From: Oscillospiraceae bacterium
GTDB taxonomy: Bacteria > Bacillota > Clostridia > Oscillospirales > Oscillospiraceae
NCBI GenBank assembly: GCA_017622995.1
Contig: JAGAQA010000005.1
Coordinates: 1-64,000, forward strand
DNA: 64,000 bases
Direction of reading: 5' to 3'
Made by a program: the position numbers and the translations under genes. Below are positions 12,918 to 60,007 of the stretch, in pieces. The notes under the pieces were generated by a model that was given only the letters and a program-made list of their open reading frames with translations, did no database searches and was not told the origin of the DNA. Numbering within the stretch: position 1 is the first letter of the stretch; the number at the start of each line of letters is the position of its first letter.

Positions 12918-13754
12918 TTACACAAAGCGGCTTGCATAGCCGCAGCGGCGACACAGGGGCTCGGAAGCGGTTCCGTTGGTGAAGCCATTGTACAGAGCCT
13001 TTGCTCTGGGGGATTCCAGAATGGTATTCAGGTCCTCCTGAAACAGATTTCCAAGCGGAATATCACCATTGTGGTCCAGGCAGCAGGGAACCACCGTTCC
13101 GTCTGCCAGAATGCCAAGCTGGTCCCGCAGACCGTAACAGAAGAAACGTCCGGTTCGCTCCGGAGCTTCCAGGTCCGGCCAGTCAAACTGGTCTCCCGGT
13201 TCCAGAAACACCCGGTTCCCGATGGCCGTACCCTGTTTCCCGGGAACCCAGGGACCGGGAAATGCGGCATGAAGATACCCCATGATTTCCTGATTTTTCC
13301 GGTCAGCGCCGCCGTTGTTCCATAGCCTGTAGACCACAATTTTCTTCCCTTCGGCTGCCTGCCCAAAGGACAGACAGTCGTTCAGGTATTCCTCGAAGGG
13401 AACGGTCAAATCATTGGCTTCAAAGGCATGCAGTGAGATTTGGATTTTATGCAGGGCGGGTGAGGAAAGAAGCAGCTCCTGATTTCGGCGAATGAGGGTA
13501 CCGTTGGTGGTGAGAATCACCCGAAAACCAAATGTCTGGGCCATTTTCAGAAAACTACCCAGCTTGGGATGGCACAAGGGTTCCCCCATCAAATGGAAGT
13601 AGAGATAATCCGTGTAGGGCTGCAGCTTGGGGAGCAATTGACAGAATGCAGCCTCGTCCATTGCTCTTGGCTCCCGGCGTGTGCCGGGGCAGAACCTGCA
13701 GGACAGATTACATTTATTGGAAATCTCTACGTAGATCTTACGAAACCGCTTCAT
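12918..13754 (-). CDS. Radical SAM protein with SPASM-like C-terminus
   Basis: The CxxxCxxC cluster site is Cys15, Cys19, Cys22 (KCNLSCRFC), which would bind the 4Fe-4S cluster used to cleave S-adenosylmethionine. HLMGEPLCHP and LTTNGTLI match the family core. Near the C-terminus, VPCCLDHNGDIPLGNLF and CRRCGYASRF resemble the auxiliary-cluster (SPASM/twitch) region. The 278-residue length fits. The start overlaps the asnA stop by one base (TAATG), so the two are coupled. The substrate is unknown and no precursor peptide is adjacent. Confidence 0.85.
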   Translation of the reverse strand: MKRFRKIYVEISNKCNLSCRFCPGTRREPRAMDEAAFCQLLPKLQPYTDYLYFHLMGEPLCHPKLGSFLKMAQTFGFRVILTTNGTLIRRNQELLLSSPALHKIQISLHAFEANDLTVPFEEYLNDCLSFGQAAEGKKIVVYRLWNNGGADRKNQEIMGYLHAAFPGPWVPGKQGTAIGNRVFLEPGDQFDWPDLEAPERTGRFFCYGLRDQLGILADGTVVPCCLDHNGDIPLGNLFQEDLNTILESPRAKALYNGFTNGTASEPLCRRCGYASRFV

Positions 13755-44043: not shown

Positions 44044-44340
44044 ATGACGATCGAAAAAATGCTTGAAGAAAAGAAACTGACCATCGCGCTGGCTGGCCGC
44101 CTGGATACTACCACCGCTCCCAAGCTGGAGACGGAGCTGAAGCAGAACATTTCTGGAGTAGAGGAACTGGCGCTGGATCTGGCCGCACTGGAATATCTGT
44201 CCTCCGCAGGCCTGCGTGTGCTGCTGTCTGCACAGAAAGTGATGAACCGCCAGGGGCACATGGTGGTCAGAAATGTAAACGAAACCGTTATGGAGATTTT
44301 TGAAGTTACAGGATTCGTAGATGTACTGACCATCGAATAA
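44044..44340 (+). CDS. STAS-domain anti-sigma factor antagonist
   Basis: The 98-residue protein is a single STAS domain like SpoIIAA and RsbV. LAGRLDTTTAPKLETEL and ALDLAALEYLSSAGLRVLL match the family, including the Ser before AGLR that the partner kinase phosphorylates. AAGGAG lies before ATG. With the phosphatase and HATPase genes that follow, it forms a full partner-switching set. No SigB/SigF-type sigma is next to it. Confidence 0.93.
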   Translation: MTIEKMLEEKKLTIALAGRLDTTTAPKLETELKQNISGVEELALDLAALEYLSSAGLRVLLSAQKVMNRQGHMVVRNVNETVMEIFEVTGFVDVLTIE

Positions 44341-44362: not shown

Positions 44363-46195
44363 ATGAACACGGAAAAAAAGAAAATATCCCGTTCCTTCCA
44401 AAACTGGCTGCTGCTGCTGGTGGCTGCGGCATTTTTGACTACGACATCATTTTTGTGGGTATTCCAGACAAAGCTGGCCCAGGAAAATACCGTCCGCCTG
44501 CTGGAACTGAATATCGCCGATGTACGTCAGGATATTCAGGACGCTTCTGATGAAAATCTGCTGGCGCTGACAGCGGAGATCGCCGGAAAGCTGAACAATG
44601 CGCAGGCAATTACTGCCGATTTCCTTTTTGAATTATGTGATCAGTATGATGTCACGGAGATCAACTGCATTAACCCGGATGGATTGATTTATGTCAGTAC
44701 ATACCCCGATTTCCTGAACTATGATATGCGCAGCGGCGAACAGTCTGCGGAATTTATGGTATTGCTGGATGGGGAAACAGAATATGTTCAGCGCTATCAG
44801 CCGGTTTCCTATGATGCGTCCATCTCCCGGAAATATGCCGGTGTGGTGCTGGAAAACGGCGGTTTTGTTCAAGTGGGCTATGGCTTTGAACGCTTCCAGC
44901 GGGACATCAGGGAGTTTGTCATTGGTGTGACCCGAAACCGCCATGTGGGGGAAGGTGGCTGCATCCTTATTGCAGACGAAAGCTGGAATATTGTCAGTGA
45001 CCGAAATGGCAATGAAGGCAGGAATCTGGATGTGACCGGCATCTGGATCGATACCCAGACCATGTCTCAGGGAGAGGTGTTCTCTTCGGAGGTTTATGGG
45101 GAGAGCTGCTACTGTATGTATAAGCAGCAGGAGGGCTATACCATTGTAGCAGTAATGCCCCAAAGCGAAGCCGCCCTGTCCCGGAATGTTGCGGTGGGTG
45201 TGACCACAGCTATGCAGATTGTGATTTTTTCCGCCCTGTTTATCATGATTTTTGTACTGGTGAAGAAGCTGGTGGTGGACAACATTCTCAAAATTAACGG
45301 TTCTCTGGCTGCCATTACCGAGGGCCACCTGGATACGGTGGTGGATGTCCGTTCCCACGCAGAGTTTGCAGCGCTGTCTGACGACATCAATTCCACCGTG
45401 GATACGCTGAAACGATACATATCTGATGCGGAAGCCAGGATCGATGCGGAACTGGCCTTCGCCAAAGCGATTCAGCATTCTGCAATTCCCACTGTGTTTC
45501 CACCTTATCCCAACCGGAAAGAGTTTGAGATCTGGGCCTGCATGTATACAGCAAAAGAAGTGGGCGGCGATTTCTACGATTTCTATTTCGTGGATGAAGA
45601 TACGCTGGCGTTCTTGATTGCGGATGTGTCCGGCAAGGGTATTCCTGCTGCCATGTTTATGATGCAGGCCAAAACCCTGCTGAAAAGCTATGCTGAATCC
45701 GGCATGGCCGTGGCAGAAGTTCTGACCCAGGCCAACAACAAGCTCTGTGAGGGCAATGAGGCCGGAATGTTTGTTACGGTCTGGATGGGCTACCTGAATA
45801 CCCGAACAGGCGAAGTGACGTATGCTAACGCAGGCCACAATCCACCCATCATTCGCCATGCTGACGGCAGTGTGGAAATAGTCAAATCCCGTCCCGGTCT
45901 TGTGCTGGCGGGGATGGAGGGCATCCGCTACCGGCCCAATACGGTGCAGCTGAAACCGGGCGACCTGCTGTATCTCTATACCGATGGTGTGACCGAGGCT
46001 ACGGATGTGGCCAATAACCTCTATGGAGAAGCCCGTCTGCAGACCGTTCTGCAGCAGAAAAATGTTGGAGATGTTGAAACCGTTTGCCGGAAGGTGAAGG
46101 AAAATGTAGATAACTTTGTGGGAGATGCGCCCCAGTTTGATGACATCACCATGCTGGCACTGAAGTATACGCCTTCAGAGGAGGAAACGGTATGA
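44363..46195 (+). CDS. Membrane sensor PP2C phosphatase (SpoIIE/RsbU type)
   Basis: The 610-residue protein has an N-terminal helix (about 13-35), an extracytoplasmic sensor region to about 275 resembling a Cache/PAS-like fold, a second helix (TAMQIVIFSALFIMIFVLV), a HAMP-like linker (about 300-355), and a SpoIIE phosphatase domain from about 375. The metal-binding Asp residues are seen in EVGGDFYDFY, LIADVSGKGIPAAMFM and QFDDITMLAL. It should dephosphorylate the STAS protein in response to an outside signal. It overlaps the HATPase gene by 4 bases. Confidence 0.93.
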   Translation: MNTEKKKISRSFQNWLLLLVAAAFLTTTSFLWVFQTKLAQENTVRLLELNIADVRQDIQDASDENLLALTAEIAGKLNNAQAITADFLFELCDQYDVTEINCINPDGLIYVSTYPDFLNYDMRSGEQSAEFMVLLDGETEYVQRYQPVSYDASISRKYAGVVLENGGFVQVGYGFERFQRDIREFVIGVTRNRHVGEGGCILIADESWNIVSDRNGNEGRNLDVTGIWIDTQTMSQGEVFSSEVYGESCYCMYKQQEGYTIVAVMPQSEAALSRNVAVGVTTAMQIVIFSALFIMIFVLVKKLVVDNILKINGSLAAITEGHLDTVVDVRSHAEFAALSDDINSTVDTLKRYISDAEARIDAELAFAKAIQHSAIPTVFPPYPNRKEFEIWACMYTAKEVGGDFYDFYFVDEDTLAFLIADVSGKGIPAAMFMMQAKTLLKSYAESGMAVAEVLTQANNKLCEGNEAGMFVTVWMGYLNTRTGEVTYANAGHNPPIIRHADGSVEIVKSRPGLVLAGMEGIRYRPNTVQLKPGDLLYLYTDGVTEATDVANNLYGEARLQTVLQQKNVGDVETVCRKVKENVDNFVGDAPQFDDITMLALKYTPSEEETV

Positions 46196-46599
46196 AAGAA
46201 CTGACCATTGCGGCAACGGTGGAAAATATCGGAACTGTGACGGAGTTTGTGAATGAACAGCTGGAAGCACTGGACTGTCCCATGAGGGCACAAATGCAGA
46301 TTGATATTGCCATCGACGAGTTGTTTGGAAATATTGCCCATTACGCCTATAATCCCGATGTTGGAAATGCTACAGTTCGGGTAGAGGTAACGGAGGAACC
46401 GCTGGCAGTGATCATTACCTTTATTGACGGCGGCGTGCCCTACGACCCGCTGAAGGCTGCGGATCCGGATATTACCCTATCTGCAGAGGAACGGCAGATA
46501 GGCGGACTGGGGATCTACATGGTGAAAAAGTCCATGGACGAAATTACTTACGAATATAAGGATGGAAAAAACATCCTGTCCATTAAGAAAAAATTGTAA
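46192..46599 (+). CDS. RsbW/SpoIIAB-type HATPase, anti-sigma kinase
   Basis: The 135-residue protein is a GHKL ATPase domain. The N-box is IDIAIDELFGNIAHYAY, the G1 box is FIDGGVPYDP, and the G2-like motif is IGGLGIYMVKK. Such proteins phosphorylate the STAS partner and bind a target sigma or other regulator. ATG overlaps the phosphatase stop (ATGA). The controlled target is not obvious: the ECF sigma at 55142 is not the usual partner of this family. Confidence 0.92.
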   Translation: MKELTIAATVENIGTVTEFVNEQLEALDCPMRAQMQIDIAIDELFGNIAHYAYNPDVGNATVRVEVTEEPLAVIITFIDGGVPYDPLKAADPDITLSAEERQIGGLGIYMVKKSMDEITYEYKDGKNILSIKKKL

Positions 46600-46627: not shown

Positions 46628-47101
46628 ATGAACGAACAATTATTCCGCAAAAAGAGCATTGAACGGGTATCTTCCCCGGAACAGCTGGATGCTTATATCC
46701 GGGTGGCAAACCCCGGAGTTTGGCTGGTACTGATTGCCATTATAGTGCTGCTGGTGGGAGTCTGCGTCTGGGGAATCCTGGGGCATTTGGATACCACGAT
46801 AAGCGCTGTTGCGGTCTGTGAAAATGGTACCATGACACTGTATGTAAAAGATGAGGACGGAAAAAGTGCCCGGACAGGAATGGAAGTGCGGATTGGCGAG
46901 GATACCGCTTCTGTTACAGCCATTTCCCTGATGCCAATAAAAGCAGAGACAGAGTTAAGTGATTATATCCGTCATGTGGGCGGCTTCGGGGCAGAGGACT
47001 GGGTCTATGCTCTTCAGACTGACGCACAGCTGCCGGATGGTGTTTACAGCGCGAAAATCATTGTGGAAAGCGTGTCGCCCATGTCTTTTGTGGTGAATTG
47101 A
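46628..47101 (+). CDS. NHLP-type secretion protein (short membrane-fusion adaptor)
   Basis: The 157-residue protein begins NEQLFRKKSIERVSSPEQLD, then one membrane helix (about 27-52), then GHLDTTISAVAVCENG. The LFRKxxxERxSSPEQL start and the position next to NHLP-type ABC genes match the NHLM bacteriocin secretion (HlyD-like) protein. It is much shorter than normal HlyD adaptors and lacks the long coiled-coil hairpin, fitting a single-membrane cell. Start is ATG 46628 with GGGGGAG upstream. Confidence 0.8.
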   Translation: MNEQLFRKKSIERVSSPEQLDAYIRVANPGVWLVLIAIIVLLVGVCVWGILGHLDTTISAVAVCENGTMTLYVKDEDGKSARTGMEVRIGEDTASVTAISLMPIKAETELSDYIRHVGGFGAEDWVYALQTDAQLPDGVYSAKIIVESVSPMSFVVN

Positions 47102-47111
47102 GGTAGTGGTT

Positions 47112-49295
47112 ATGGGTAAGACAAAACCGATTTCCCAGCCGTTGACCAAAGGCGTTGCCAAGGTTCCGGTGGTCATGCAGATGGAAGCCCTGGAATGCGG
47201 TGCGGCCTCCCTGACCATGGTCCTGGCCTATTACGGAAAATGGCTTCCGTTGGAGCAGGTCCGCGCAGACTGCGGTGTGTCCCGGGATGGCTCCAACGCA
47301 AAAAATGTGCTGCGGGCAGCAAGAAGCTACGGTCTCAGTGCCAAGGGCTACCGCTTTGAGCCGGAGGATCTGAAAACCTACGGCAAATTTCCCTGTATCA
47401 TCCACTGGAATTTCAACCATTTTGTGGTGCTGAACGGTTTCAAAGGAGATAAGGCGGTACTGAACGACCCGGCCAAGGGCTGCTACAGTGTCCCAATGGA
47501 AACTTTTGACAAATCCTTTACAGGCATTTGTCTGATGTTTGAACCCACGGAAGACTTTGTGCCCGGCGGAACGCCCAGAAGTGTATGGGATTTTGCCATG
47601 GAGAAAGTGAAAGGTGCGGGAACCGCGGTTGCATTTACTGTGATTACCACGGTCATCGCCTCTTTGCTGGGGATCATCCAGCCGGCCTTCTCCCGAATTT
47701 TTCTGGACCGGCTGCTGACAGGAGTGAATCCCGGCTGGACAAATCCCTTCCTGTGGGCGCTGTCTGGTTTGGCGGTGGTCCAGATCATCCTTGCGTTTAT
47801 CCGGGCTGTATTTTCTGCCCGGCTCCATGCCAAGATCGCGGCGGTGGGCAGCACCGCTTATTTGTGGAAGGTACTACATCTTCCTATGGAATTTTTCTCC
47901 CAGCGGATGGCTGGTGATATTCAGCAGCGAATGGGGTCCAATGCCTCCATTGCGGAAAAATTGGTGAATACCCTGTCTCCCTTGGTAATCCAGGCGGCCA
48001 TGATGGTGTTCTATCTGGTGGTCATGGTGCGCTACAGTTTGCTGTTGACGCTGATCGGCGTGTTCTCCATCGTGATCAATCTGTTTGTGTCCCGGTATAT
48101 CTCCCGGAAGCGGGTGAATCTGACCCGGGTGCAGATGCGCGACAGCGGTAAGCTTTCCGGCACCACGGTAGCGGGCATCGAAATGATCGAGACCATCAAA
48201 GCCAGCGGTGCGGAGAATGGTTTCTTTGAAAAGTGGTCCGGTTATCAGGCCAGCGTCAATGCTCAGAAGGTGGCCTTCTCCCGTTTAAATCAGTATGTGG
48301 GCCTGATCCCCCAGATCGTGTCCACCCTGACGGATACGGCGGTGCTGATCCTTGGGGTCTGGCTGGTGATGGAGGGGCAGTTTACCATTGGTATGGTCAT
48401 GGCCTTTCAGGGCTTTTTGAGCAGCTTTACTGCCCCTGCTTCCCAGTTGATCGGGGCGGGGCAGACCATCCAGGAGCTGCGTACCGATATGGAGCGCATC
48501 GAGGACGTGATGCGCTATCCGGAGGATGCGGCCTGTGTGGATACACCGCTGGACGAAGATGCGGAATATGATAAGCTCTCCGGTGCGGTGGAACTGAAAA
48601 ACGTCACCTTCGGATATTCCCGGCTGGCGGAGCCTCTGATCCGGGATTTCAGCATGACGCTGAAGCAGGGCAGCCGGGTGGCTTTCGTGGGTGCTTCCGG
48701 CTGCGGAAAATCCACTTTGGCCAAGCTGATCTCGGGACTCTATCAGCCCTGGAGCGGTGAGATCCTCTTTGACGGAAAGCCACAGACTGCCATTGACCGC
48801 AGTGTGTTCACCGGTTCTCTGGCGGTGGTGGATCAGGATATTATCCTGTTTGAAGATACCATTGCCAACAATATCAAAATGTGGGATTCCTCCATCGAGG
48901 ATTTTGAAATGATCCTTGCGGCCCGGGATGCCCAGATCCACAGTGATATCATGCAGCGCGAAGGTGGCTACAACTATAAGCTCACCGAAGGCGGCAAGGA
49001 CTTATCCGGCGGACAGCGGCAGCGGCTGGAAATTGCCCGGGTGCTGGCCCAAGATCCCACCATTATCATTCTGGACGAAGCCACCTCTGCTTTGGATGCA
49101 AAGACGGAATATGATGTGGTGAAATCCATCCAGGACCGGGGCATCACCTGCATCGTGGTGGCCCACCGGCTGTCCACGATCCGGGACTGCGACGAGATCA
49201 TTGTGCTGGACCGGGGCAGGGTGGTGGAACGGGGTACCCACGAGGAACTGTATGCTCTGGGCGGTGCCTATACCAAACTGGTTACCAGTGATTGA
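47112..49295 (+). CDS. C39 peptidase-ABC exporter (NHLP-type, PCAT)
   Basis: This 727-residue transporter should cut precursor leaders after a double-glycine-type site and export the core. The N-terminal C39 peptidase has Cys29 in QMEALECGAAS, His103 in NFNHFVVL and Asp119 in LNDP. Six membrane helices follow (about 160-440), then the ATPase with GASGCGKST, LSGGQRQRLEIARVL and IILDEATSALD. All catalytic residues are present. The peptide genes downstream supply its likely substrates. ATG 47112 follows GAGGTA. Confidence 0.95.
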   Translation: MGKTKPISQPLTKGVAKVPVVMQMEALECGAASLTMVLAYYGKWLPLEQVRADCGVSRDGSNAKNVLRAARSYGLSAKGYRFEPEDLKTYGKFPCIIHWNFNHFVVLNGFKGDKAVLNDPAKGCYSVPMETFDKSFTGICLMFEPTEDFVPGGTPRSVWDFAMEKVKGAGTAVAFTVITTVIASLLGIIQPAFSRIFLDRLLTGVNPGWTNPFLWALSGLAVVQIILAFIRAVFSARLHAKIAAVGSTAYLWKVLHLPMEFFSQRMAGDIQQRMGSNASIAEKLVNTLSPLVIQAAMMVFYLVVMVRYSLLLTLIGVFSIVINLFVSRYISRKRVNLTRVQMRDSGKLSGTTVAGIEMIETIKASGAENGFFEKWSGYQASVNAQKVAFSRLNQYVGLIPQIVSTLTDTAVLILGVWLVMEGQFTIGMVMAFQGFLSSFTAPASQLIGAGQTIQELRTDMERIEDVMRYPEDAACVDTPLDEDAEYDKLSGAVELKNVTFGYSRLAEPLIRDFSMTLKQGSRVAFVGASGCGKSTLAKLISGLYQPWSGEILFDGKPQTAIDRSVFTGSLAVVDQDIILFEDTIANNIKMWDSSIEDFEMILAARDAQIHSDIMQREGGYNYKLTEGGKDLSGGQRQRLEIARVLAQDPTIIILDEATSALDAKTEYDVVKSIQDRGITCIVVAHRLSTIRDCDEIIVLDRGRVVERGTHEELYALGGAYTKLVTSD

Positions 49296-49307: not shown

Positions 49308-51491
49308 GTGGGCTGGTTTGATGAACAGATCAAGGAAAGAAAACGAAAGGATGATGAGATTTTCTCCGAGGCCTTTGTGGGCATCGCCGATGCGGTGCTG
49401 GGTTCCCGGCTGGCATCTGTTTATTCCACAGAGGAAGAAAAGGCAGAGGACGCCATCGGAGAGATTCTGAAATACTACCATGTAAAGCCCCGGGAGGTTC
49501 CCTCTTCCATAAAGGGACTGAACGACCGGCTGGAATTTCTGCTGCGGCCCTACGGCATCATGCACCGCAGAGTGAAGCTGGAAACAGGCTGGCACCGGGA
49601 TGCCATTGGTGCCATGCTGGCAACCCGGAAGGACGACGGCACGGTGACAGCCCTGATCCCCAAAGGGCTTAGCGGCTATGTGTACTTTGACAATAAAAAC
49701 GGAAAATGGGCGAAGATCAGTCAAAAGAATGAAACGCTGTTTGAGGAAGAAGGCATCTGCTTCTATAAGCCTTTCCCTTTGAAAAAGCTGACCATCCCAT
49801 CCCTGATGCGCTATGTTTTGGATTGCCTGTCCCCGGCAGACCTGTCTCTGGTGGCCCTGGCCACCTTGGCAGTCTCCCTGGTGGGACTGCTGTCGCCGAA
49901 GCTGAACAGCCTGCTGTTCGGTACTGTAGTGGAAAGCGGTCAGCTGCGGCTGCTTGTTGGCATTGCGGTATTTCTGGTCAGTGCTGGAATCAGCCGCCTG
50001 CTGGTTAACGCGGTAAAGGCGTTGGTGGTGGAGCGGGCGAACACCAAAATCGACCTGTCCGTGCAGGCGGCCACCATGATGCGGATCCTGTCTCTGCCTG
50101 CGGACTTTTTCAAGAAATACAGCTCCGGCGATTTGGCATCCCGGACCGGGTATCTGCAGTCTCTGTGTAATATGCTGGTATCCGCGGTGCTGAATACGGG
50201 CCTGACTTCGGTGTTTTCTCTGCTGTACATTTCTCAAATCTTTGTGTATGCGCCGATGCTGGTGGTACCGGCTTTGAGCGTTACTCTGGTGACGCTGGTA
50301 TTTACGCTGGTCACCACCTTCTGCCAGATGAAGTTGACCCGGCAGCAGATGGAGCTTGCCTCCAAAGAAAGCGGTATGAGCTATGCTCTCATCACCGGCA
50401 TCCAGAAGATCAAACTTTCCGGTGCGGAGAAGCGGGCCTTTGCACGGTGGGCGGAAGTTTTCTCCCGGCGGCTGGCACTGACCGCCAATCCTCCCATGTT
50501 CCTGCGGGCCAATGCCGCCATTTCTGCGGCGATCTCTCTGACAGGAACAATTGTCATGTACTATTTCGCCTTGAAAAGCGGCATTTCCGTGGCGGAATAC
50601 TACGCCTTTAACACGGCCTACGGCATGATGTCCGGTGCATTTCTATCTCTGGCAGGCATTGCCTCAACGATTGCCCGGCTAAAGCCGGTGCTGGATATGG
50701 CAAAGCCCCTGATGGATACGGTTCCCGAGGTTTCCGAAGGCAAGGTGGTCATCGACCGGCTGTCCGGCGGCATCGAGCTGAACAATGTTTCCTTCCGATA
50801 TAACGAGTCCATGCCCATGGTCATTGACGATCTTTCTTTGAAGATCCGTCCGGGACAGTATGTGGCCATCGTGGGCAGCACCGGCTGCGGCAAGTCCACC
50901 CTGATGCGGCTGCTTCTGGGCTTTGAGAAACCCCAGAAGGGCGCTGTCTACTATGACGGCAAGGATCTGAATGCCATCGATCTGAAATCCCTACGGCAGA
51001 AAATCGGCGTGGTGATGCAGGACGGCAAGCTGTTCCAGGGAGATATCTTCTCCAATATCACCATTTCCGCACCTCAGCTGACTTTGAAAGAGGCCTGGGA
51101 GGCGGCGGAGATGGCAGGTGTTGCTGAGGATATCCGGGCCATGCCCATGGGGATGCACACCGTCATTTCCGAGGGCAGCGGCGGCATCTCCGGCGGCCAG
51201 CGGCAGCGGCTGATGATTGCCCGGGCCATTGCTCCCAAACCCAAGATACTGATGTTTGACGAGGCCACCTCGGCCCTGGACAATCTGACCCAGAAAACCG
51301 TGTCGGATTCTCTGGACAAGCTGAAATGCACGAGAATCGTCATCGCCCATCGTCTTTCCACCATCCGCCACTGTGACCGGATCCTCTATCTGGAAAAGGG
51401 GAAAATCCTGGAGGACGGCACCTATGAGGAGCTGATCGCCAGGGGCGGGAAGTTTGCTGATTTGGTGGAACGGCAGAGGTTGGACACATAA
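49308..51491 (+). CDS. Second NHLP-type ABC exporter (permease-ATPase)
   Basis: The 727-residue protein pairs with the PCAT, as in NHLP systems, which usually carry two ABC genes. Residues 1-150 form an N-terminal domain without C39 catalytic residues. Membrane helices follow (about 170-440), then the ATPase with VGSTGCGKSTLMRLLLG, GGISGGQRQRLMIARAI and LMFDEATSALD. The GTG start at 49308 lies just after GAGGAGGTGATG. It is 12 bases from the PCAT gene. Confidence 0.93.
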   Translation: MGWFDEQIKERKRKDDEIFSEAFVGIADAVLGSRLASVYSTEEEKAEDAIGEILKYYHVKPREVPSSIKGLNDRLEFLLRPYGIMHRRVKLETGWHRDAIGAMLATRKDDGTVTALIPKGLSGYVYFDNKNGKWAKISQKNETLFEEEGICFYKPFPLKKLTIPSLMRYVLDCLSPADLSLVALATLAVSLVGLLSPKLNSLLFGTVVESGQLRLLVGIAVFLVSAGISRLLVNAVKALVVERANTKIDLSVQAATMMRILSLPADFFKKYSSGDLASRTGYLQSLCNMLVSAVLNTGLTSVFSLLYISQIFVYAPMLVVPALSVTLVTLVFTLVTTFCQMKLTRQQMELASKESGMSYALITGIQKIKLSGAEKRAFARWAEVFSRRLALTANPPMFLRANAAISAAISLTGTIVMYYFALKSGISVAEYYAFNTAYGMMSGAFLSLAGIASTIARLKPVLDMAKPLMDTVPEVSEGKVVIDRLSGGIELNNVSFRYNESMPMVIDDLSLKIRPGQYVAIVGSTGCGKSTLMRLLLGFEKPQKGAVYYDGKDLNAIDLKSLRQKIGVVMQDGKLFQGDIFSNITISAPQLTLKEAWEAAEMAGVAEDIRAMPMGMHTVISEGSGGISGGQRQRLMIARAIAPKPKILMFDEATSALDNLTQKTVSDSLDKLKCTRIVIAHRLSTIRHCDRILYLEKGKILEDGTYEELIARGGKFADLVERQRLDT

Positions 51492-51511: not shown

Positions 51512-51540
51512 TATACCTTTTTGGTACTTGCTTCGTATAA
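51512..51540 (+). promoter_or_regulatory. ECF-sigma-like promoter P1 (peptide array)
   Basis: TATACC (51512-51517), 16 bases, then CGTATAA (51534-51540). The same layout recurs at 52254 and 54207 and resembles the B. subtilis SigW consensus TGAAAC-N16-CGTA. It sits between the second ABC gene and the first peptide gene. Confidence 0.75.
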
Positions 51541-51575
51541 AGAGGCAAAGAAACAAAAACGAGGAGGATAACAAT

Positions 51576-51770
51576 ATGGAAAACAAGGAACTGAAGAAGC
51601 CCATCCCGGTGGAGCTGGATGATAATGCACTGGATACTGTCAGCGGCGGTACGGAACCTTCTCAGGACGAGGAATTCATAGGAGGGATGCCGATAGACCC
51701 GAGTAATCAGTATATTGAGTTTCAATTTTACTCTGAATATATAGAAGAAGCTGAGAAGCGTTCTAATTAA
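51576..51770 (+). CDS. Double-glycine leader peptide A (acidic core, no Cys)
   Basis: The 64-residue precursor has the leader MENKELKKPIPVELDD and then NALDTVSGG, cut expected after Gly25. The core of 39 residues is acidic, with no Cys and with an EYIEEAEKR end. GAGGAGG lies before ATG. It is the first gene after P1 and the only larger member without cysteines, so it may differ in function from the zinc-ribbon members. Not recognised as any known bacteriocin. Confidence 0.85.
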   Translation: MENKELKKPIPVELDDNALDTVSGGTEPSQDEEFIGGMPIDPSNQYIEFQFYSEYIEEAEKRSN

Positions 51771-51809
51771 AAGTCCTATTGGTCATTGGCAAAACGGAGG
51801 AATCACAAT

Positions 51810-52082
51810 ATGGAAAACAAGAAACTGAAAAATCCTATGCTGAACGAGCTGGATGAGGATATGCTGGGCAATGTGTCCGGCGGTACGGAGGATGATGGCT
51901 GGTATTGGGGATTTGGATTTCCTCCGCATTATCTCAATGCCTGCCCCAAGTGTGGGGGTGGCGTATATTCCTGGCCCCTACCGGAATCCATGGGAGGTGG
52001 GATCGTCTTTGCTTGCGGTCCCTGCGACTGGGAAGGGCGTTCTGCCAGTGAATTGGCTCCCGGTTACATCTATAACGGGTGA
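51810..52082 (+). CDS. Double-glycine leader peptide B (two CxxC pairs)
   Basis: The 90-residue precursor has the leader KNPMLNELDEDMLGNVSGG with cut after Gly25. The core has WYWGFGFPP and two Cys pairs, Cys45/48 (CPKC) and Cys69/72 (CGPC), 20 residues apart, as in a zinc ribbon. It is a close paralogue of peptide F at 54554. GGAGG lies before ATG. A broken sigma-factor gene follows directly. Confidence 0.88.
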   Translation: MENKKLKNPMLNELDEDMLGNVSGGTEDDGWYWGFGFPPHYLNACPKCGGGVYSWPLPESMGGGIVFACGPCDWEGRSASELAPGYIYNG

Positions 52083-52229
52083 GCAAGACCGGCAAATCCT
52101 GTGCTGCTGCATTATGATAAGGGCATGCCCCTGAAAGCTGTGGCGGATGAATTGGAAATGTCCTACATAAACGCGAAGGTGACCCACAAAAAAGCCCTGT
52201 CCGGCCTGCGGCTTGCCATGGGCGCATAA
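52083..52229 (+). pseudogene. Remnant of an ECF sigma factor (region 4 end)
   Basis: From about 52107 the frame reads LLHYDKGMPLKAVADEL then EMSYINAKVTHKKALSGL to a TAA at 52227-52229. This matches the C-terminal region 4 of the intact sigma at 55142 (LLHYYKGLTLKEVADKM and MSYINAKVIHKKALSGL). Just upstream, EQDRQIL matches the next residues in another frame, so two bases were gained or one lost. The rest of the gene is gone and no start remains. Confidence 0.88.
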
Positions 52230-52253
52230 AAATCAAAAATTTACCGGAAGGAA

Positions 52254-52282
52254 TATACCATCCGGGTATTTCCATCGTATCA
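52254..52282 (+). promoter_or_regulatory. ECF-sigma-like promoter P2 (peptide array)
   Basis: TATACC (52254-52259), 16 bases, then CGTATCAAT (52276 on). GGAA precedes the -35 box as at P1. The spacing equals that of P1 and P3. It serves peptides C and D and probably the lipoprotein. Confidence 0.75.
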
Positions 52283-52312
52283 ATAGACAAAGAAATCAAG
52301 GAGGAAAACACC

Positions 52313-52597
52313 ATGGAAAACAAGAAACTGAATAACCCCATGCTGGATGAGCTGGATGATGATGCGCTGAGTAATGTGTCCGGTGGTGCAGATCCCAACT
52401 ATTATAGAAGCTGTACCGATTTTCTCTGCTTCTATTGCGGTTATCAAAGAACAGATTCGGGAGAAATGTCCCATGTGTGTCTAGGCAGGGGCTACCAAAC
52501 GGCGCACCGCTGTGATAATTGTAAGCATCTTCTGCGCTGCGACCATGGGCTGGCGTTTAAGGAAAAGGATGATGCAATAATGGGTATTGGGGGATAA
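52313..52597 (+). CDS. Double-glycine leader peptide C (seven Cys)
   Basis: The 94-residue precursor has the leader NNPMLDELDDDALSNVSGG, cut after Gly25. The core has Cys34, 39, 42, 56, 67, 70 and 76, including CFYCGY and CDNC, and His residues that could complete zinc sites. AAGGAGG lies before ATG. It ends with a GIGG sequence. First gene after P2; peptide D follows after 3 bases. Confidence 0.85.
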   Translation: MENKKLNNPMLDELDDDALSNVSGGADPNYYRSCTDFLCFYCGYQRTDSGEMSHVCLGRGYQTAHRCDNCKHLLRCDHGLAFKEKDDAIMGIGG

Positions 52598-52600
52598 CAT

Positions 52601-52861
52601 ATGGAAAACAAAAATCAATTTGAACTGAACGATGATGTGCTGAATGCAGTTTCCGGCGGTGCCTTTGGCGATTGGGAAACCTGCCCCGTGTGTGGCAAGC
52701 CCAAGCGCGAGGGATATATCTGCATCCATTGTGATATGGCAGATGGCGTAGTAACCTGCTTCCGCTGCCGCAGCCCGCTGACACGGGAAGCCGGATGTGC
52801 CCACTGCGGCACGACCTGGGATGAATATCTTCAGATTACAGCGCCATTGCGCAGTGAATGA
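52601..52861 (+). CDS. Double-glycine leader peptide D (four CxxC pairs)
   Basis: The 86-residue precursor has the short leader NQFELNDDVLNAVSGG, cut after Gly20. The core carries four evenly spaced pairs: Cys28/31 (CPVC), Cys41/44 (CIHC), Cys53/56 (CFRC) and Cys66/69 (CAHC). This is the layout of two zinc ribbons in series and is hard to explain as a lanthipeptide. Its stop overlaps the longer ATG of the next frame. Confidence 0.87.
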   Translation: MENKNQFELNDDVLNAVSGGAFGDWETCPVCGKPKREGYICIHCDMADGVVTCFRCRSPLTREAGCAHCGTTWDEYLQITAPLRSE

Positions 52862-52878
52862 GAAAAGAGGAAATGAAC

Positions 52879-54195
52879 ATGAACATGAAGAAGAGCTTGA
52901 TTTGCATCCTGGCTGTATTTGCTCTGCTGCTTGCCGCCTGCGGACAGCAGGAAGCACCTGCAATGGAAACCGAACCGGATCGGGAGATCGATATCTGCCT
53001 GTCGGATTATTATGGCATGGTCGGCGTAATGAGAGCAGATATGGACGGCAATATGGAGTACTGCGAATTCAATGCCATCAGCGTCCTGGGCGCCCCCGGT
53101 GAGATCATTCTGGATCGTTTTACCAGCAATGGCTTTTCCGAAATTGTCCCCGTCCTGGAGGGCGACAGCCTTGAGGGCTGGATGGAGTGCCGCTATGATG
53201 ACGAGCTGGGCCATTATGTCATCGTATCCGAGACCCTTTATACTACCGAGGAACTGATGGCAATGCCTGTTCCCGGAGAGTCTGTGGAATATGTGGCCAA
53301 GTGGGCAGGAATACCCGTGGAAGAATACTTCATAAGCGATCCTTTTGAAGGTGCCTCTTCCAGCGGCGTCTTCAACCTCAGCGCCAACGGGGGCAGCATG
53401 GGGTTCCGCACCTCTGACGGCAGTGAATATACCTCCGGCATCTACGGATACACTCTGGAAGAGGGTGAGTCCCTCAACGATGTGATGGGAACCGAGTTTA
53501 ATGACACACTCGTTGATATCAGCAAGGAGGGTGCTGCATTTACCGGCTGGTCTGTGTACATGGCAGAGGATCTCTTCCTGAGCCATGAGATCGTGGAAGA
53601 AGAGGACATGCTGTGTCTGGTTTTCGATGAAAACGGCTATGAGGGTGTTGTGTATGCGCTTTTGAGAAATGCCGCCTTGGTAGATGAGAATATGTCCACC
53701 GAGGACCTGTGCGGCATCACCTGTAATGGTGAGAACTACCTGGCTATGGCAAACTGGGAAAGCAGCGCAGGGAATGCAGCCCATACTATTCCCTCTGTCT
53801 TCGCATTCAGTGCCAACGGCGGCAGCATTCACTTCCACAATTATGCTGACGAAGAATATAAGACCGTTGCTTATGCCTACGGTCTGGAGTATGGCCAGGC
53901 TCTCAATGATGTGATGGGTACGGAATACGGCGATGCCCTCATTGGAATGAGCAAGGACAGCGCGGAGTTTTTGGGCTGGACCCTTTATGTGGCAGACGAG
54001 ATCACCTGGAGCAGGGACGAGGTATACGATACTGAGATCCTGTGCCTGCCCTATAATGACGCAGGCTCCCAGGGCATGAACTATGCACTTTTGAAGAACG
54101 GCTCCCTGGTGGGAGAATATATGCCCACGGAACAGCTGTGCGGCATGACCACCTACGGCGAGAACTACCTGGCCATCGCGATCTGGTCCGAATAA
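52879..54195 (+). CDS. Repeat lipoprotein embedded in the peptide array
   Basis: The 438-residue protein has a lipoprotein signal, KKSLICILAVFALLLAAC. The exported part contains two tandem repeats of about 130 residues. Each begins with SANGGS and contains LNDVMGTE, GW-S/T-V/L-Y, a Cys-Leu strand, YALL and ENYLA; the first part of the protein seems to hold a weaker third copy. No known domain was recognised. Start at ATG 52879 is eight bases after GAGG, although ATG 52858 is in frame. It could anchor or bind the exported peptides, an inference from position only. Confidence 0.8.
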   Translation: MNMKKSLICILAVFALLLAACGQQEAPAMETEPDREIDICLSDYYGMVGVMRADMDGNMEYCEFNAISVLGAPGEIILDRFTSNGFSEIVPVLEGDSLEGWMECRYDDELGHYVIVSETLYTTEELMAMPVPGESVEYVAKWAGIPVEEYFISDPFEGASSSGVFNLSANGGSMGFRTSDGSEYTSGIYGYTLEEGESLNDVMGTEFNDTLVDISKEGAAFTGWSVYMAEDLFLSHEIVEEEDMLCLVFDENGYEGVVYALLRNAALVDENMSTEDLCGITCNGENYLAMANWESSAGNAAHTIPSVFAFSANGGSIHFHNYADEEYKTVAYAYGLEYGQALNDVMGTEYGDALIGMSKDSAEFLGWTLYVADEITWSRDEVYDTEILCLPYNDAGSQGMNYALLKNGSLVGEYMPTEQLCGMTTYGENYLAIAIWSE

Positions 54196-54206
54196 AGAAA
54201 AAAGAA

Positions 54207-54236
54207 GATACCGTTTGCTTATCTTCATCGTATAAA
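54207..54236 (+). promoter_or_regulatory. ECF-sigma-like promoter P3 (peptides, sigma gene)
   Basis: GATACC (54207-54212), 16 bases, then CGTATAAA (54229-54236). It lies 12 bases after the lipoprotein stop and before peptide E. The ECF sigma gene is downstream without another visible promoter, so sigma would activate its own gene. Confidence 0.75.
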
Positions 54237-54266
54237 GGATTGAAGAGATAACAGGAGGAAAACAAT

Positions 54267-54503
54267 ATGAAAAACAAGAAACTGAAAAATCCTATTCTGA
54301 ATGAGCTGGAGGAGGATGTGCTGAGCAATGTCTCCGGCGGTAACAGTGAGGATATTTATGCCACATGCCCGTATTGTTGCTGCTATATCTTTCTGACTAT
54401 CAATAATGTGCCCGTTCCCAAAGAGGAAATAAAGTGTTCCTACTGCGGTTATAAGGACGGCGATCCCAGTACCATTCCAAACATGGAAGACATAATCGGT
54501 TGA
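54267..54503 (+). CDS. Double-glycine leader peptide E (Cys-rich)
   Basis: The 78-residue precursor has the leader KNPILNELEEDVLSNVSGG, cut after Gly25. The core has CPYCCC (Cys34, 37, 38, 39) and CSYC (Cys57/60), again a zinc-ribbon-like pair of knuckles. CAGGAGG lies before ATG. First gene after P3. Confidence 0.85.
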   Translation: MKNKKLKNPILNELEEDVLSNVSGGNSEDIYATCPYCCCYIFLTINNVPVPKEEIKCSYCGYKDGDPSTIPNMEDIIG

Positions 54504-54553
54504 TCGAGATATGATAGAGGAATGATTCTGATAAGGTAAGGAGAGAAATCAAT

Positions 54554-54826
54554 ATGCAGAATAAGGAACTGAAAAATCCCATGCTCAATGAGCTGGATGA
54601 GGATATGCTGGGCAATGTGTCTGCTGGTACGGACGATGATGGCTGGTATTGGGGATATGGATATCCTCCAAACTATCTCAACGCCTGTCCGAAATGCGGC
54701 GGTGGTGTGTATTCCATGCCCGTACCGGAATCCCTGGGAGGCGGGGCCAGCTATACCTGCGGTCCCTGCGGCTGGAAAGGCCGTTCTACAGCGGAATTTG
54801 CTCCCGGATACACTTATAATGGCTAA
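54554..54826 (+). CDS. Leader peptide F with SAG cleavage site (paralogue of B)
   Basis: The 90-residue precursor matches peptide B along its whole length and has the same Cys pairs (45/48 and 69/72), WYWGYGYPP and the APGYTYNG end. Its leader ends NVSAG rather than NVSGG, so the usual double glycine is Ala-Gly, which most C39 peptidases also accept. AAGGAGAG lies before ATG. The pair B/F, each followed by sigma sequences, points to a segmental duplication. Confidence 0.87.
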   Translation: MQNKELKNPMLNELDEDMLGNVSAGTDDDGWYWGYGYPPNYLNACPKCGGGVYSMPVPESLGGGASYTCGPCGWKGRSTAEFAPGYTYNG

Positions 54827-54929
54827 TTAGGTAAGCGGTGGAGCAAGCGATGCGGAAACAGCTCTGGAAAACGAATACATCAAGGATGAAATGATGATTA
54901 TCATCCCCATTATTTGAGAGAGGGCAACT

Positions 54930-55145
54930 ATGGAACAGAAACTGAAAAAATTGTTTGATTATCAGAAATTCCAGCGCAATTCCCGGCTGGACGCCATGCT
55001 GGCAGAAGCGGAAGGCCGCTGTGCAGAAGTGGACGAGGATGCCTTGGAGCTGGTCAACGCCGCAGGAGATGACTCTCTGATGGAACATGGAATTGTCGAA
55101 GGAGTAGATCCTGTGGGGGCTTTTATGGTGGAGGACCTGCTATGA
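54930..55145 (+). CDS. Small protein coupled to the ECF sigma gene
   Basis: The 71-residue protein has a basic helical start (EQKLKKLFDYQKFQRNSRLD) and an acidic second half with DEDALELVNAAGDD. Its stop overlaps the sigma start (ATGA), so it is made together with sigma. It has no membrane helix. It could be a cytoplasmic anti-sigma or co-factor, or, as LELVNAAG resembles a double-glycine-like site, a further exported precursor. Sequence alone does not decide. No known family was recognised. Confidence 0.75.
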   Translation: MEQKLKKLFDYQKFQRNSRLDAMLAEAEGRCAEVDEDALELVNAAGDDSLMEHGIVEGVDPVGAFMVEDLL

Positions 55146-55612
55146 CTGCCGCAGCAGAGGTTATTTACCTTTCCTATCACGATAAAGTGTCCGCATACAT
55201 CAAGGGAAAGGTAGAGAATCACTACGATGCGGAGGACTTGGTTTCCCAGGTCTTTGAGAAGGTTTATGGCAAGCTCCACACCTTCGACGAAACCAAAGCA
55301 TCTCTGTCCACCTGGATCTATACCATCACCCGCAACACGGTGACGGACTACTACCGTACTCGCCGTATTCATGCGATCTACGATGAAGCTTGTGAACGGC
55401 CTGACCCGGAACAGGACCAGGATGTGCTGGATGCCCTGGCCGATGCTCTGATGACCCTGAAAGTGCAGGAACGGGACCTGATATTGCTGCACTACTACAA
55501 GGGCTTGACCCTGAAGGAAGTGGCGGACAAAATGGGAATGTCCTACATAAACGCGAAAGTGATCCACAAAAAGGCCCTCAGCGGACTGAAAACCTATTTT
55601 CAGGAGGATTAA
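55142..55612 (+). CDS. ECF-type sigma-70 factor
   Basis: The 156-residue protein has only regions 2 and 4. Region 2 (about 10-75) shows YDAEDLVSQVFEKVYGKL and STWIYTITRNTVTDYYR. Region 4 (about 98-152) shows the helix-turn-helix LTLKEVADKMGMSYINAKV. ATG overlaps the 71-residue gene by 4 bases; peptide G begins after 3 bases. The three TATACC-N16-CGTAT promoters nearby are the likely targets. No membrane anti-sigma gene is adjacent. Confidence 0.93.
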   Translation: MTAAAEVIYLSYHDKVSAYIKGKVENHYDAEDLVSQVFEKVYGKLHTFDETKASLSTWIYTITRNTVTDYYRTRRIHAIYDEACERPDPEQDQDVLDALADALMTLKVQERDLILLHYYKGLTLKEVADKMGMSYINAKVIHKKALSGLKTYFQED

Positions 55613-55615
55613 TAT

Positions 55616-55798
55616 ATGGAAAATAAGAAATTTGAACTGAATGATGAGGCATTGGATGCGGTTTCCGGTGGTTATTGGGGGGATGAATACGCACCTAATT
55701 GCCCCAATTGCAATATTAAAATGAGGACTATCTACATCAATACGTTCCCGGTTTATAACTGTGGTTCCTGCGGTCATATAATCGAGATACAGCCGTAA
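55616..55798 (+). CDS. Double-glycine leader peptide G (minimal zinc ribbon)
   Basis: The 60-residue precursor has the short leader KKFELNDEALDAVSGG, cut after Gly19. The 41-residue core has Cys29/32 (CPNC) and Cys49/52 (CGSC) separated by 16 residues of beta-type sequence, the simplest ribbon in the set. GGAGG overlaps the end of sigma, and the gene starts 3 bases after it. Confidence 0.87.
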   Translation: MENKKFELNDEALDAVSGGYWGDEYAPNCPNCNIKMRTIYINTFPVYNCGSCGHIIEIQP

Positions 55799-55852
55799 CT
55801 GCAGACATCCAAACTCCCGGATTTTACTCAAAACAGAATAGGAGCGCGACTT

Positions 55853-56140
55853 ATGGAGAACAAGAAATTTGAACTGAATGATGCGCAGCTTGACAATGTT
55901 TCCGGCGGCCTGTTGGATGGTCTTTTTGGTTATACGGAAGAACCTACCCCCGCAGCAGCAAAGCGTGGGCTGACAGCCGGCTTGGTCTTTGATACCCAGC
56001 GCAGCTGCATCAGCTGCGGTGAAACCCACTACCGCGTCAAGGATTTTCATAAAGACGACAGAAAACTTCGTGTAGTATGCAGTGGCTGCGGAAGCCCCGG
56101 CTACTGGGACTACGAAATTTATGACACCTGGAAGGTATAG
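55853..56140 (+). CDS. Double-glycine leader peptide H (two CxxC pairs)
   Basis: The 95-residue precursor has the leader KKFELNDAQLDNVSGG, cut after Gly19. A Pro/Ala-rich stretch follows, then Cys52/55 (CISC) and Cys76/79 (CSGC) 20 residues apart, with a Trp/Tyr-rich end. TAGGAGCG lies before ATG. Confidence 0.86.
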   Translation: MENKKFELNDAQLDNVSGGLLDGLFGYTEEPTPAAAKRGLTAGLVFDTQRSCISCGETHYRVKDFHKDDRKLRVVCSGCGSPGYWDYEIYDTWKV

Positions 56141-56156
56141 ATCGAAAGAGGTCAAT

Positions 56157-56258
56157 ATGGCAGGAATCAAAAAATGGATTCTGGAACTGGATGGCGGCAT
56201 GCTGGACGCGGTTTCCGGTGGCGGCGGTAGTGTGGTGCAGTGGATAAACAATAGGTAA
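56157..56258 (+). CDS. Mini double-glycine peptide I (33 residues)
   Basis: A small gene reads a leader KKWILELDGGMLDAVSGG followed by only 11 residues, GGSVVQWINNR. GAAAGAGGT lies before ATG 56157. It ends TAATG, sharing a base with the permease start, so translation is coupled. The core has no Cys and looks like a signalling peptide rather than a ribbon. It is too short for usual gene finders. Confidence 0.75.
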   Translation: MAGIKKWILELDGGMLDAVSGGGGSVVQWINNR

Positions 56259-58064: not shown

Positions 58065-58667
58065 ATGAAAATCTACGGGATTCAAATTCGGACGGTTGAA
58101 AAAATACCCTGCGGACATCTCATGAACCTGATGCCCAATCGATACACACGAGCGCTGAAATACTTGCGCAGGGAAGACCGCCTGCGCTGCCTGGGTGCAG
58201 GATTACTGATGCACCGCGTGCTGGGCATCGATGAGCGTGAGCTGAAATACGGTGCATATGGGAAACCCTATGCACCGGGTAAGGCCGAATTCAGTATTTC
58301 CCACGGCGGGAACTGGGCAATCCTTTCGGCGGATCGTCATCCGGTGGGCGTGGACATCGAACCCATGAACGATGCCAATCTTTCTGTTGCTCGAAGGGTG
58401 TTCACGGCGGAGGAATTGTTCTGGATGCAGCAGGATCCACTTCCTCGCTTTCATATCCTGTGGACGATCAAGGAAAGCATTATGAAGGCTACAGGCCTTG
58501 GCCTTCAGATGGATCCGGCGCGGTTTTCTGTTCTTCCTATAGATGGACCGAAATGTGTCCATGAACAAATATGGCATACAGCCTGGCTTCTGCACGAAGG
58601 CTGTGCGGTTGCCTGCGCGTCCGCAAACATCATCGATGGCCTGGAATTCGAAGAAATATTATATTGA
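58065..58667 (+). CDS. Sfp-type 4'-phosphopantetheinyl transferase
   Basis: This enzyme attaches phosphopantetheine from CoA to the carrier-domain Ser of the NRPSs. The 200-residue protein has the family motifs in order: GKPY, FSISHGGNWAILS, GVDIEPM with Mg-binding acidic residues, and WTIKESIMKATGLGL. The location just before the NRPS fits a dedicated activator for the two NRPS proteins. Confidence 0.94.
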   Translation: MKIYGIQIRTVEKIPCGHLMNLMPNRYTRALKYLRREDRLRCLGAGLLMHRVLGIDERELKYGAYGKPYAPGKAEFSISHGGNWAILSADRHPVGVDIEPMNDANLSVARRVFTAEELFWMQQDPLPRFHILWTIKESIMKATGLGLQMDPARFSVLPIDGPKCVHEQIWHTAWLLHEGCAVACASANIIDGLEFEEILY

Positions 58668-58678
58668 GGAAGTGTCAT

Positions 58679-60007
58679 ATGGACTATTTGTCTGATCCTG
58701 TCGGAAAACTGTATAAAAAGCTGGTACCCTCCGCAATCGGCTCCATGCTGACTGCAACGGTGGCTTCGCTGATCGATACCATCATCCTCAGCTATTATCT
58801 TGGTCCGGTGATGCTCTCCTCGGTGAGTATCTGTATGCCGATCTACATGATCCTGAATGCGCTGGCACTGCTGATCGCATCCGGCGGAGCTACGCTCTGC
58901 GCCACCTATGTGGGAAAAGGCGACATTAAAGAATCCAACCGCTTTTTCACGGCAGCCACGGCCTGTATTGTAGCCGTGGGCCTGTTATTAATGGTTATCG
59001 GTCTGCTGTTTACAAAGGAAATTGTAATGCTGCTGGGTGCAAACGATTCGATTTGGGCTTCCACCTTTGCTTATGCCAGGGTGCTGATGGCCTTTATCCT
59101 TCCGCTGATGCTCTATTGCCTGATGCTGTTTTTTGTGCGTTTTGATTCGGATCCCGGCCTTGCGCTGGCGGCAACGGGAACCTGTGCGGTCACGAATCTT
59201 GTGCTGGATATCCTGTTTGTGGGTCCGCTGAACATGGGTGCTTCCGGTGCGGCGCTGGCTACCTGTCTGGCGTACACCTTTGCCACACTTCTGGGCTTTA
59301 CCCATTTCCTGAAAAAGAAGAATACACTGCGTCTGGTTCGCGGAAGCCTGTCAGCAGGCAGAATCCTGCGCATCCTGCGTACCGGTGCACCGCTGTCCCT
59401 GTCCCAGTTTGGTATGGCGCTCACAACTTCGGTCTTCAATACGCAGATCATGCATATTGGCGGCGAGCTGCATGTAACGGCTTATGCCATCGTCACGCAG
59501 CTTTCCATGAGTGCTCTGGCGTTCTATGAGGGCGTAGCCCAGGCGGCACAGCCCATACTCGCGGCGAACTTTGGCGCAAAGAAGCCTGACCGCGTAAGAG
59601 AAACCATGCGCATCGGTTTATTGCTGGAGCTGATCTTTACCGGGGCGTGTCTGGCAGTTTTTGTGATTGGAGCAAAGACAGTAGCAGGCTTCTTTTCCAT
59701 TTATGAAGGGGAACTGCTGCACATCAGCGTGAGGGCCATACGGCTGTTTTCCCTGTCCATCCCATTTACCGGCCTGAATATGCTGGGTACATACTTTTTC
59801 CAGGCCAGGGAACGCACAGCCCCGGCCACAGCAATTTCGCTGCTCAGCGGTACTGTTCTATTGATTGCAGCGCTGCTGGCTCTCACAGCATGCTTTGGGT
59901 CGGATGGCATCTGGTGGTCCTGGCTGCTGGCGCAGGCGCTGTGTCTGATTTATACGGTATTTGCGGCCAGCAGGGATGTTTCCGGGAGTATGACAGGATC
60001 GAAATAG
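58679..60007 (+). CDS. MATE-family efflux transporter
   Basis: The 442-residue protein has about 12 membrane helices in two matching halves. LIDTIILSYYLGPVMLSSVSIC and ASGGATLCATYVGKGD are typical of the first half, and GVAQAAQPILAANFGAKK of the second. It is probably a proton- or sodium-driven exporter of the NRPS product, inferred from position. Start is ATG 58679 after GAGGAAG, 11 bases past the PPTase stop; a longer frame begins inside the PPTase gene and is rejected. Confidence 0.92.
   Translation: MDYLSDPVGKLYKKLVPSAIGSMLTATVASLIDTIILSYYLGPVMLSSVSICMPIYMILNALALLIASGGATLCATYVGKGDIKESNRFFTAATACIVAVGLLLMVIGLLFTKEIVMLLGANDSIWASTFAYARVLMAFILPLMLYCLMLFFVRFDSDPGLALAATGTCAVTNLVLDILFVGPLNMGASGAALATCLAYTFATLLGFTHFLKKKNTLRLVRGSLSAGRILRILRTGAPLSLSQFGMALTTSVFNTQIMHIGGELHVTAYAIVTQLSMSALAFYEGVAQAAQPILAANFGAKKPDRVRETMRIGLLLELIFTGACLAVFVIGAKTVAGFFSIYEGELLHISVRAIRLFSLSIPFTGLNMLGTYFFQARERTAPATAISLLSGTVLLIAALLALTACFGSDGIWWSWLLAQALCLIYTVFAASRDVSGSMTGSK

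Follow-up and report, generated by a model that had tools for sequence, protein, structure and literature searches.

The peptide array and its exporter

In the first 64,000 nucleotides (nt) of contig JAGAQA010000005.1 of an Oscillospiraceae bacterium (the whole stretch analysed here, called the window; all positions refer to it), an array of small peptide genes occupies positions 51576-56258 of the plus strand. Nine genes, A to I, each behind a purine-rich stretch resembling a ribosome-binding site, encode precursors with double-glycine-type (GG) leaders, which end in VSGG in eight peptides and in VSAG in F only; an array of nine had been reported in a preliminary description of this DNA. The cores of A (51576-51770) and I (56157-56258, with a core of 11 residues) have no Cys. 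Two CxxC pairs each are found in B (51810-52082), C (52313-52597, with seven Cys), E (54267-54503, with six Cys), F (54554-54826), G (55616-55798) and H (55853-56140), and four in D (52601-52861), which had likewise been described as a four-pair peptide. These seven Cys-bearing cores are 41-76 residues long, and their knuckles lie 8-24 residues apart, which widens the range of 10-23 given before. The 16 CxxC pairs of the seven cores compare with 2.8 ± 1.5 in composition-preserving shuffles, and not one of 20000 shuffles reached 16, which rules out a chance origin. Mean identity among the seven Cys peptides is 0.69 for the leaders and 0.29 for the cores. B and F are paralogues (core identity 74%) whose genes differ at 50 of 270 bases, 28 of the 50 at third positions (nonsynonymous rate dN 0.126, synonymous rate dS 0.642), and they are under purifying selection. 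The array also holds genes absent from the preliminary description, namely those for a lipoprotein-like protein, a 71-residue leader-like protein and a sigma factor of the extracytoplasmic function (ECF) type.

Directly upstream, as had been noted, are the genes of a C39 peptidase-ATP-binding cassette (ABC) exporter and of a second ABC protein, both on the plus strand. ABC1 (47106-49295), a C39 peptidase-permease-ATPase, scores 956.7 bits against TIGR03796 (NHLM_micro_ABC1, cut-off 853.3), and ABC2 (49308-51491), a second permease-ATPase, 735.5 bits against TIGR03797 (NHLM_micro_ABC2, cut-off 709.4). In the C39 domain, Q25, C31, H105 and D121, which we take to be the catalytic residues of the peptidase and which had been reported to be present, are invariant in 12 relatives. 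A short HlyD-like exporter accessory protein (46628-47101, plus strand), with one hydrophobic stretch recognised by eye, matches positions 1-47 only of the 421 of TIGR03794, at 47.6 bits and under the cut-off of 156.2. No match of the nine peptides to the NHLP and Nif11 precursor models (TIGR03793 and TIGR03798) was found at a maximum E-value of 10, and all leaders of the window fall below the cut-offs of class II bacteriocin leader models, the best being that of C (TIGR01847, 14.6 against 15.7; PF10439, 15.0 against 27.1).

Metal-site signatures in the cores

Zinc ribbons had been proposed for the cargo as a whole, and the proposal fared best for G. CPxCG knuckles are a signature of metal sites, and the pattern of G is CPxC-x16-CxxCG. 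Its core exceeds the gathering cut-offs of two Pfam zinc-ribbon models (PF12760, 28.3 against 25.4; PF13453, 26.6 against 22). Structure prediction was run on cores G and C; the AlphaFold model of G, with a predicted local distance difference test score (pLDDT) of 84, has a ribbon fold of three strands, and its structural match is to the zinc ribbons of RNA polymerase. With the Pfam models, the AlphaFold model and the structural match, the prediction that G is a zinc ribbon is well supported. The top match of the G profile, to a multi-finger protein (2e-11), was set aside because its score adds up many short repeated matches.

The cores of B, C, D, E, F and H reach only sub-threshold matches to curated zinc-ribbon models; D, for example, is below gathering with 16.5 bits for DZR and 16.3 bits for DZR_2. 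From such matches to zinc families it is plausible that B, D, E, F and H are zinc-ribbon-like. The AlphaFold model of C, made from 13 sequences, is poor (pLDDT 49). Among solved structures, no convincing match was found for the B/F pair, for the C family or for D, E or H. A three-sequence alignment of D misplaces its last two CxxC pairs. Conservation of four Cys in nine G-type cores and in the set of 48 CxxC peptides discussed below is partly circular, as these were picked for two CxxC pairs, and is not counted as evidence.

Recurrence in related exporter loci

A genome scan with an alignment of the exporter gave at least 579 relatives, of which the best 80 were kept. The comparisons below cover 107 related exporter loci (L numbers), or 108 with the window; two of them (L056 and L060) lay outside the peptide and radical S-adenosylmethionine (SAM) scans, leaving 105 other loci, and the duplicates L070/L105 and L075/L076 were merged. 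Many locus flanks stop at contig ends, so that counts of neighbouring genes are lower bounds. A leader profile recognised 210 same-strand GG peptides in 63 of the 108 loci; the window enters these counts with six CxxC peptides because the profile misses F with its AG end. At least two CxxC pairs occur in 49 of the 210, distributed over 23 loci, and in none of nine peptides on the opposite strand. Without the window and the duplicates, the figures are 42 of 200 GG peptides and 21 of 105 loci, so that a search of genomes for such arrays beside C39-ABC genes, as the preliminary description had proposed, does recover the same kind of cargo elsewhere. Chance is ruled out here as well, since the 42 cores stand against a mean of 4.7 and a maximum of 12 in 1000 shuffles. 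Two peptides of this CxxC cargo are encoded in the complete genome of Anaerocolumna sedimenticola CBA3638 (L154). Cores laid out like that of C are present in L091, L098, L105, L112 and L120. Two four-pair cores like D are found in L092, a metagenome-assembled genome of Clostridia from roe deer caecum whose ABC1 is 81% identical to that of the window.

In the 91 pairs of the relatives, Pro follows the first Cys in 25 and Gly follows the second in 50; both residues are much more frequent at these places than elsewhere in the cores, and the pairs resemble zinc knuckles in this respect. This enrichment bears on the idea that the Cys pairs form disulfides after export, in which case the products would be small metal-free bacteriocins held by disulfides. 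Such bonds are found in many class II bacteriocins, and the number of Cys is even in B, D, E, F, G and H. However, C has an odd number, G matches zinc families, Pro and Gly are enriched at the knuckle positions in the relatives, and most relatives were sampled from gut or rumen, which are probably anoxic. We regard disulfide-bonded products as improbable.

TIGR03796 has matches at an E-value of 1e-200 or better in 29 of 394 genomes of the order, 23 of them over the cut-off, and no close ABC1 exists in 36 other genomes of the genus (best identity 31%); because of the latter, the distribution of the locus is patchy.

Regulatory and other genes of the locus

The ECF-type sigma factor (55142-55612, plus strand; TIGR02937 96.4 bits, cut-off 42.9) is encoded within the array. 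A promoter-like motif, TACC-N16-CGTATMA, has exactly three sites in the window, all 30-35 nt before A, C and E, where shuffles lead one to expect none. They are, on the plus strand, TACC-N16-CGTATAA at 51514-51540 (35 nt upstream of A), TACC-N16-CGTATCA at 52256-52282 (30 nt upstream of C) and TACC-N16-CGTATAA at 54209-54235 (31 nt upstream of E). In L092, the same motif precedes both a pair of leader-like and sigma genes and an array of CxxC peptides. From this placement of the motif we infer that the sigma factor drives the cargo genes. Among the relatives searched, L092 is the only one with the motif before the expected genes; in L103 a single site lies 356 nt ahead of a GG peptide, and the remaining sites are scattered.

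Immediately ahead of the sigma gene lies that of the 71-residue leader-like protein (54930-55145, plus strand), which has VNAAG where the peptides have VSGG. It has matches in 17 of the 107 loci, each of which has a match to the sigma factor as well, and the two genes adjoin in the six relatives whose coordinates were inspected. The protein might mimic a leader without being cleavable and so act as a regulator of the sigma factor. Its relative in L140 ends in AAGG. After B, at 52083-52229 on the plus strand, lies what seems to be left of a second sigma factor gene, namely its C-terminal part; the translation resembles, by eye, the end of the 55142-55612 product, and suggests that a block comprising B/F and the sigma gene was duplicated. 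The lipoprotein-like protein (52858-54195, plus strand), encoded between D and E, has a lipobox and two repeats recognised by eye; it belongs to no Pfam family, has a match in L092 only among the 107 loci, and is a candidate immunity protein or surface partner.

The exporter operon is headed by three regulatory genes on the plus strand, which together with that of the HlyD-like protein are separated by gaps of -4 to 28 nt. These encode a STAS-domain protein of the anti-sigma antagonist type (44044-44340; Pfam STAS 53.3 and STAS_2 52.9 bits), a SpoIIE-type protein phosphatase with a weak HAMP match (44363-46195; Pfam SpoIIE 184.3 bits), beginning 22 nt past the STAS gene, and an RsbW/SpoIIAB-like kinase (46192-46599; HATPase_c_2 70.2 bits), which overlaps the SpoIIE gene by 4 nt. 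At an E-value of 1e-3, anywhere in the locus stretch, matches in the 107 related loci number 50 for the STAS protein, 45 for the phosphatase, 42 for the kinase, 27 for the sigma factor, 103 for the short HlyD-like protein and 107 for ABC2. The ECF-type sigma factor in the array, the TACC-N16-CGTATMA motif and the STAS/SpoIIE/RsbW module heading the operon are new here. The flanks of the locus contain a nonribosomal peptide synthetase protein with the domain order adenylation-peptidyl carrier-condensation (37124-40033, minus strand), a phosphopantetheinyl transferase (58065-58667) and a MATE exporter (58571-60007).

Other cargo of related exporters

From 106 peptides of the relatives with cores of at least 25 residues, 45 without two CxxC pairs were chosen by eye. 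At an E-value of 0.001, seven of these 45 matched LysM, four CW_7 and two SH3_3. Ten were checked singly, and the matches over curated cut-offs were to LysM in L136, L146 and L156, to CW_7 in L136, L145 and L153, and to SH3_3 in L160; L140 was below the cut-off, and L159 and L165, taken for SH3 by eye, had no match. Judged by these domains, some of these NHLM-type exporters carry peptidoglycan-binding domains behind GG leaders, and the export of small domains may be general to them. The LysM, CW_7 and SH3 cores point to the envelope as a place of action and to a role of the exporters in shipping small domains.

The same cores bear on the possibility that the products are metallophore proteins, exported for the scavenging of zinc or iron. 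Many four-Cys sites in series would suit such proteins. Against this, the Pfam hits of 20 proteins around the locus include no metal-uptake gene or metal regulator, two of the nine cores lack Cys altogether, and related exporters carry LysM, CW_7 and SH3 cores; a metallophore role thus seems very improbable.

Further kinds of GG peptide were seen near radical SAM open frames. Twelve GG peptides with repeat units like CACVMGGGGEY are encoded at L130:5597-9478, close to a radical SAM open frame at 4151-5563, and similar repeats occur in L089 and L111. In L151:441-3612 and L166:8546-9536, GG cores share a CK..(F/Y/T)..(D/E)NC(W/Y)..D.CD-like pattern, likewise near radical SAM open frames.

Tailoring enzymes and the nature of the cargo

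Pfam scans of 20 proteins at 35-64 kb gave no lanthionine synthetase, YcaO protein or radical SAM enzyme, and those of ten proteins at 9-34 kb, the sample scanned below 35 kb, gave no lanthionine synthetase or YcaO protein. A six-frame search of the whole genome gave 17 radical SAM matches, of which the only one on the contig is at 13416-13730, on the minus strand and about 38 kb away. The earlier statement that no tailoring enzyme is seen thus stands for the neighbourhood of the array in the window but does not extend to the class, for reasons given below. On balance we think it probable, with modest confidence, that the locus is a form of the NHLM exporter system whose cargo consists of unmodified miniproteins resembling zinc ribbons and is controlled by a sigma factor of its own.

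Several results qualify this reading or weigh against it. A Pfam scan of 48 CxxC peptides (six from the window, without F) returned many zinc families, each with at most four members; the commonest family was Nif11, with five, and a type-A lantibiotic model had three; among the relatives, Nif11 was matched by 5 of the 48 CxxC peptides and by 6 of the 45 non-zinc peptides. With a leading A, the promoter-like motif has four matches in the whole genome, three of which are the window sites, against two for the reversed control pattern, which is a weak contrast. (The fourth runs into the end of an unrelated open frame, just ahead of a hairpin-like stretch, and seems to be a chance match.) Radical SAM matches of more than 200 bits are present in 10 of the 21 loci with CxxC cargo and in 10 of the 84 others (p 7e-4), or, with the comparison restricted to loci in which any GG peptide was found, in 10 of 21 against 8 of 40 (p 0.04). 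In 6 of the 21 (L081, L091, L099, L103, L106 and L154), a radical SAM open frame starts 1-123 nt past the CxxC peptide. The best curated models for these enzymes are radical SAM/SPASM families, well below cut-off, and the Cys of the peptides beside them may be cross-linked. Because radical SAM frames follow CxxC peptides in these six loci, the contrast with modified peptides is not clean for the class.

The same data favor a reading in which the Cys-pair cores are substrates of radical SAM/SPASM enzymes, that is, thioether-type members of the ribosomally synthesized and post-translationally modified peptides (RiPPs), the enzyme having been lost or being encoded elsewhere in the genome. Besides the enrichment and the adjacent frames, Radical_SAM matches occur in 9 of 70 neighbour proteins scanned. 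Against this, the contig's one match lies on the other strand, and no close homologue of the L106 enzyme was found in the genome, the best match being 27% identical over residues 90-263 of 465 (E-value 7.5e-8). The syntenic L092 encodes six CxxC peptides and no radical SAM enzyme within the 15 kb examined of its 21.7 kb contig, and the CPxCG knuckles suggest metal sites. We consider that a radical SAM-modified cargo is unlikely in the window.

Unmodified, zinc-ribbon-like cargo is the reading retained here. The preliminary description had set a secretion system for metal-binding miniproteins against classical modified bacteriocins; the first half is partly supported by the predicted zinc-ribbon fold of G and the recurrence of the cargo in 21 of 105 loci, and the second half is weakened, for the class, by the radical SAM genes of the relatives.

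A proposed mechanism

The locus would be dedicated to the export of protein domains that are small and already formed. The ECF-type sigma factor would recognise the TACC-N16-CGTATMA sites upstream of A, C and E as promoters and turn on the cargo genes, and the STAS/SpoIIE/RsbW partner switch in the exporter operon would set the timing of exporter and cargo activity, probably in response to a signal that the phosphatase senses. The leader would be bound by the C39 domain of ABC1 and cut off behind GG (behind AG in F), and the core would be moved out by ABC1, ABC2 and the short HlyD-like protein. Outside, the cores would fold around tetra-cysteine metal sites, one each in B, E, F, G and H and two in D and perhaps in C, the metal most likely being zinc, with no tailoring by an enzyme encoded nearby. 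Bacteriocin-like antagonism or action at cell envelopes is the likeliest use, a weakly supported suggestion that is made because conserved leaders are joined to divergent cores and because some cores in relatives bind peptidoglycan, as judged by their domains; the lipoprotein may give the producer protection.

A broader proposal is possible but doubtful: that this is a widespread and undescribed kind of secretion in gut Clostridia, in which NHLM-type C39 exporters ship small ready-made domains (zinc ribbons, LysM, CW_7 and SH3) in place of modified peptides, a dedicated ECF-type sigma factor and a partner-switch phosphatase turn on the arrays, and the leader-like protein (54930-55145) links the capacity for export to the sigma factor. 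On that proposal, these zinc ribbons would be the first bacteriocin-like miniproteins that are exported and fold around a metal. Precursors encoded next to NHLM exporters are commonly taken for heavily modified RiPPs, whereas the cargo here resembles finished protein domains. If this is true, mining pipelines that require a tailoring enzyme would overlook a class of secreted gut miniproteins.

Comparison with known systems

The system most like that of the window is NHLM/NHLP (TIGR03794, TIGR03796 and TIGR03797), whose exporter was defined, in the accessible text of PMC2887384, together with NHLP/Nif11 precursors, many of them expected to be modified. As in that system, ABC1 and ABC2 are adjacent and over the cut-offs, with GG-type precursors beside them. 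The window differs in its short accessory protein, which covers 47 of 421 positions of TIGR03794, in precursors that match neither NHLP nor Nif11 models, in the lack of a LanM or cyclodehydratase near the array, and in cores that look like metal-site domains. Clusters of NHLP/Nif11 with radical SAM genes are listed for anaerobes in the accessible part of PMC4289311, and the terms zinc and NHLP are absent from the accessible main text of the Hungate1000 survey (PMC13289728). Among the matches listed in the literature searched, we found no description of zinc-ribbon cargo for such exporters. Small proteins with GG leaders and a non-bacteriocin role, in the control of biofilms, are also secreted by Synechococcus (PMC4997328), which is of a different phylum, and the opening of that abstract does not use the term zinc ribbon.

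Class II bacteriocins (TIGR01847 and PF10439) share with the window the short VSGG leader, the C39 exporter and the lack of a recognised tailoring gene in the locus. Unlike them, the window has leaders below both cut-offs, Cys cores of 41-76 residues with zinc-ribbon-like knuckles, and no recognised immunity gene. With the zinc ribbons of TFIIB, RPB9 and IS1595, G has in common the CPxC-x16-CxxCG pattern, the three predicted strands and the match to RNA polymerase zinc ribbons. Those ribbons, however, are normally intracellular parts of larger proteins, whereas the ribbon of the window sits behind an export leader.

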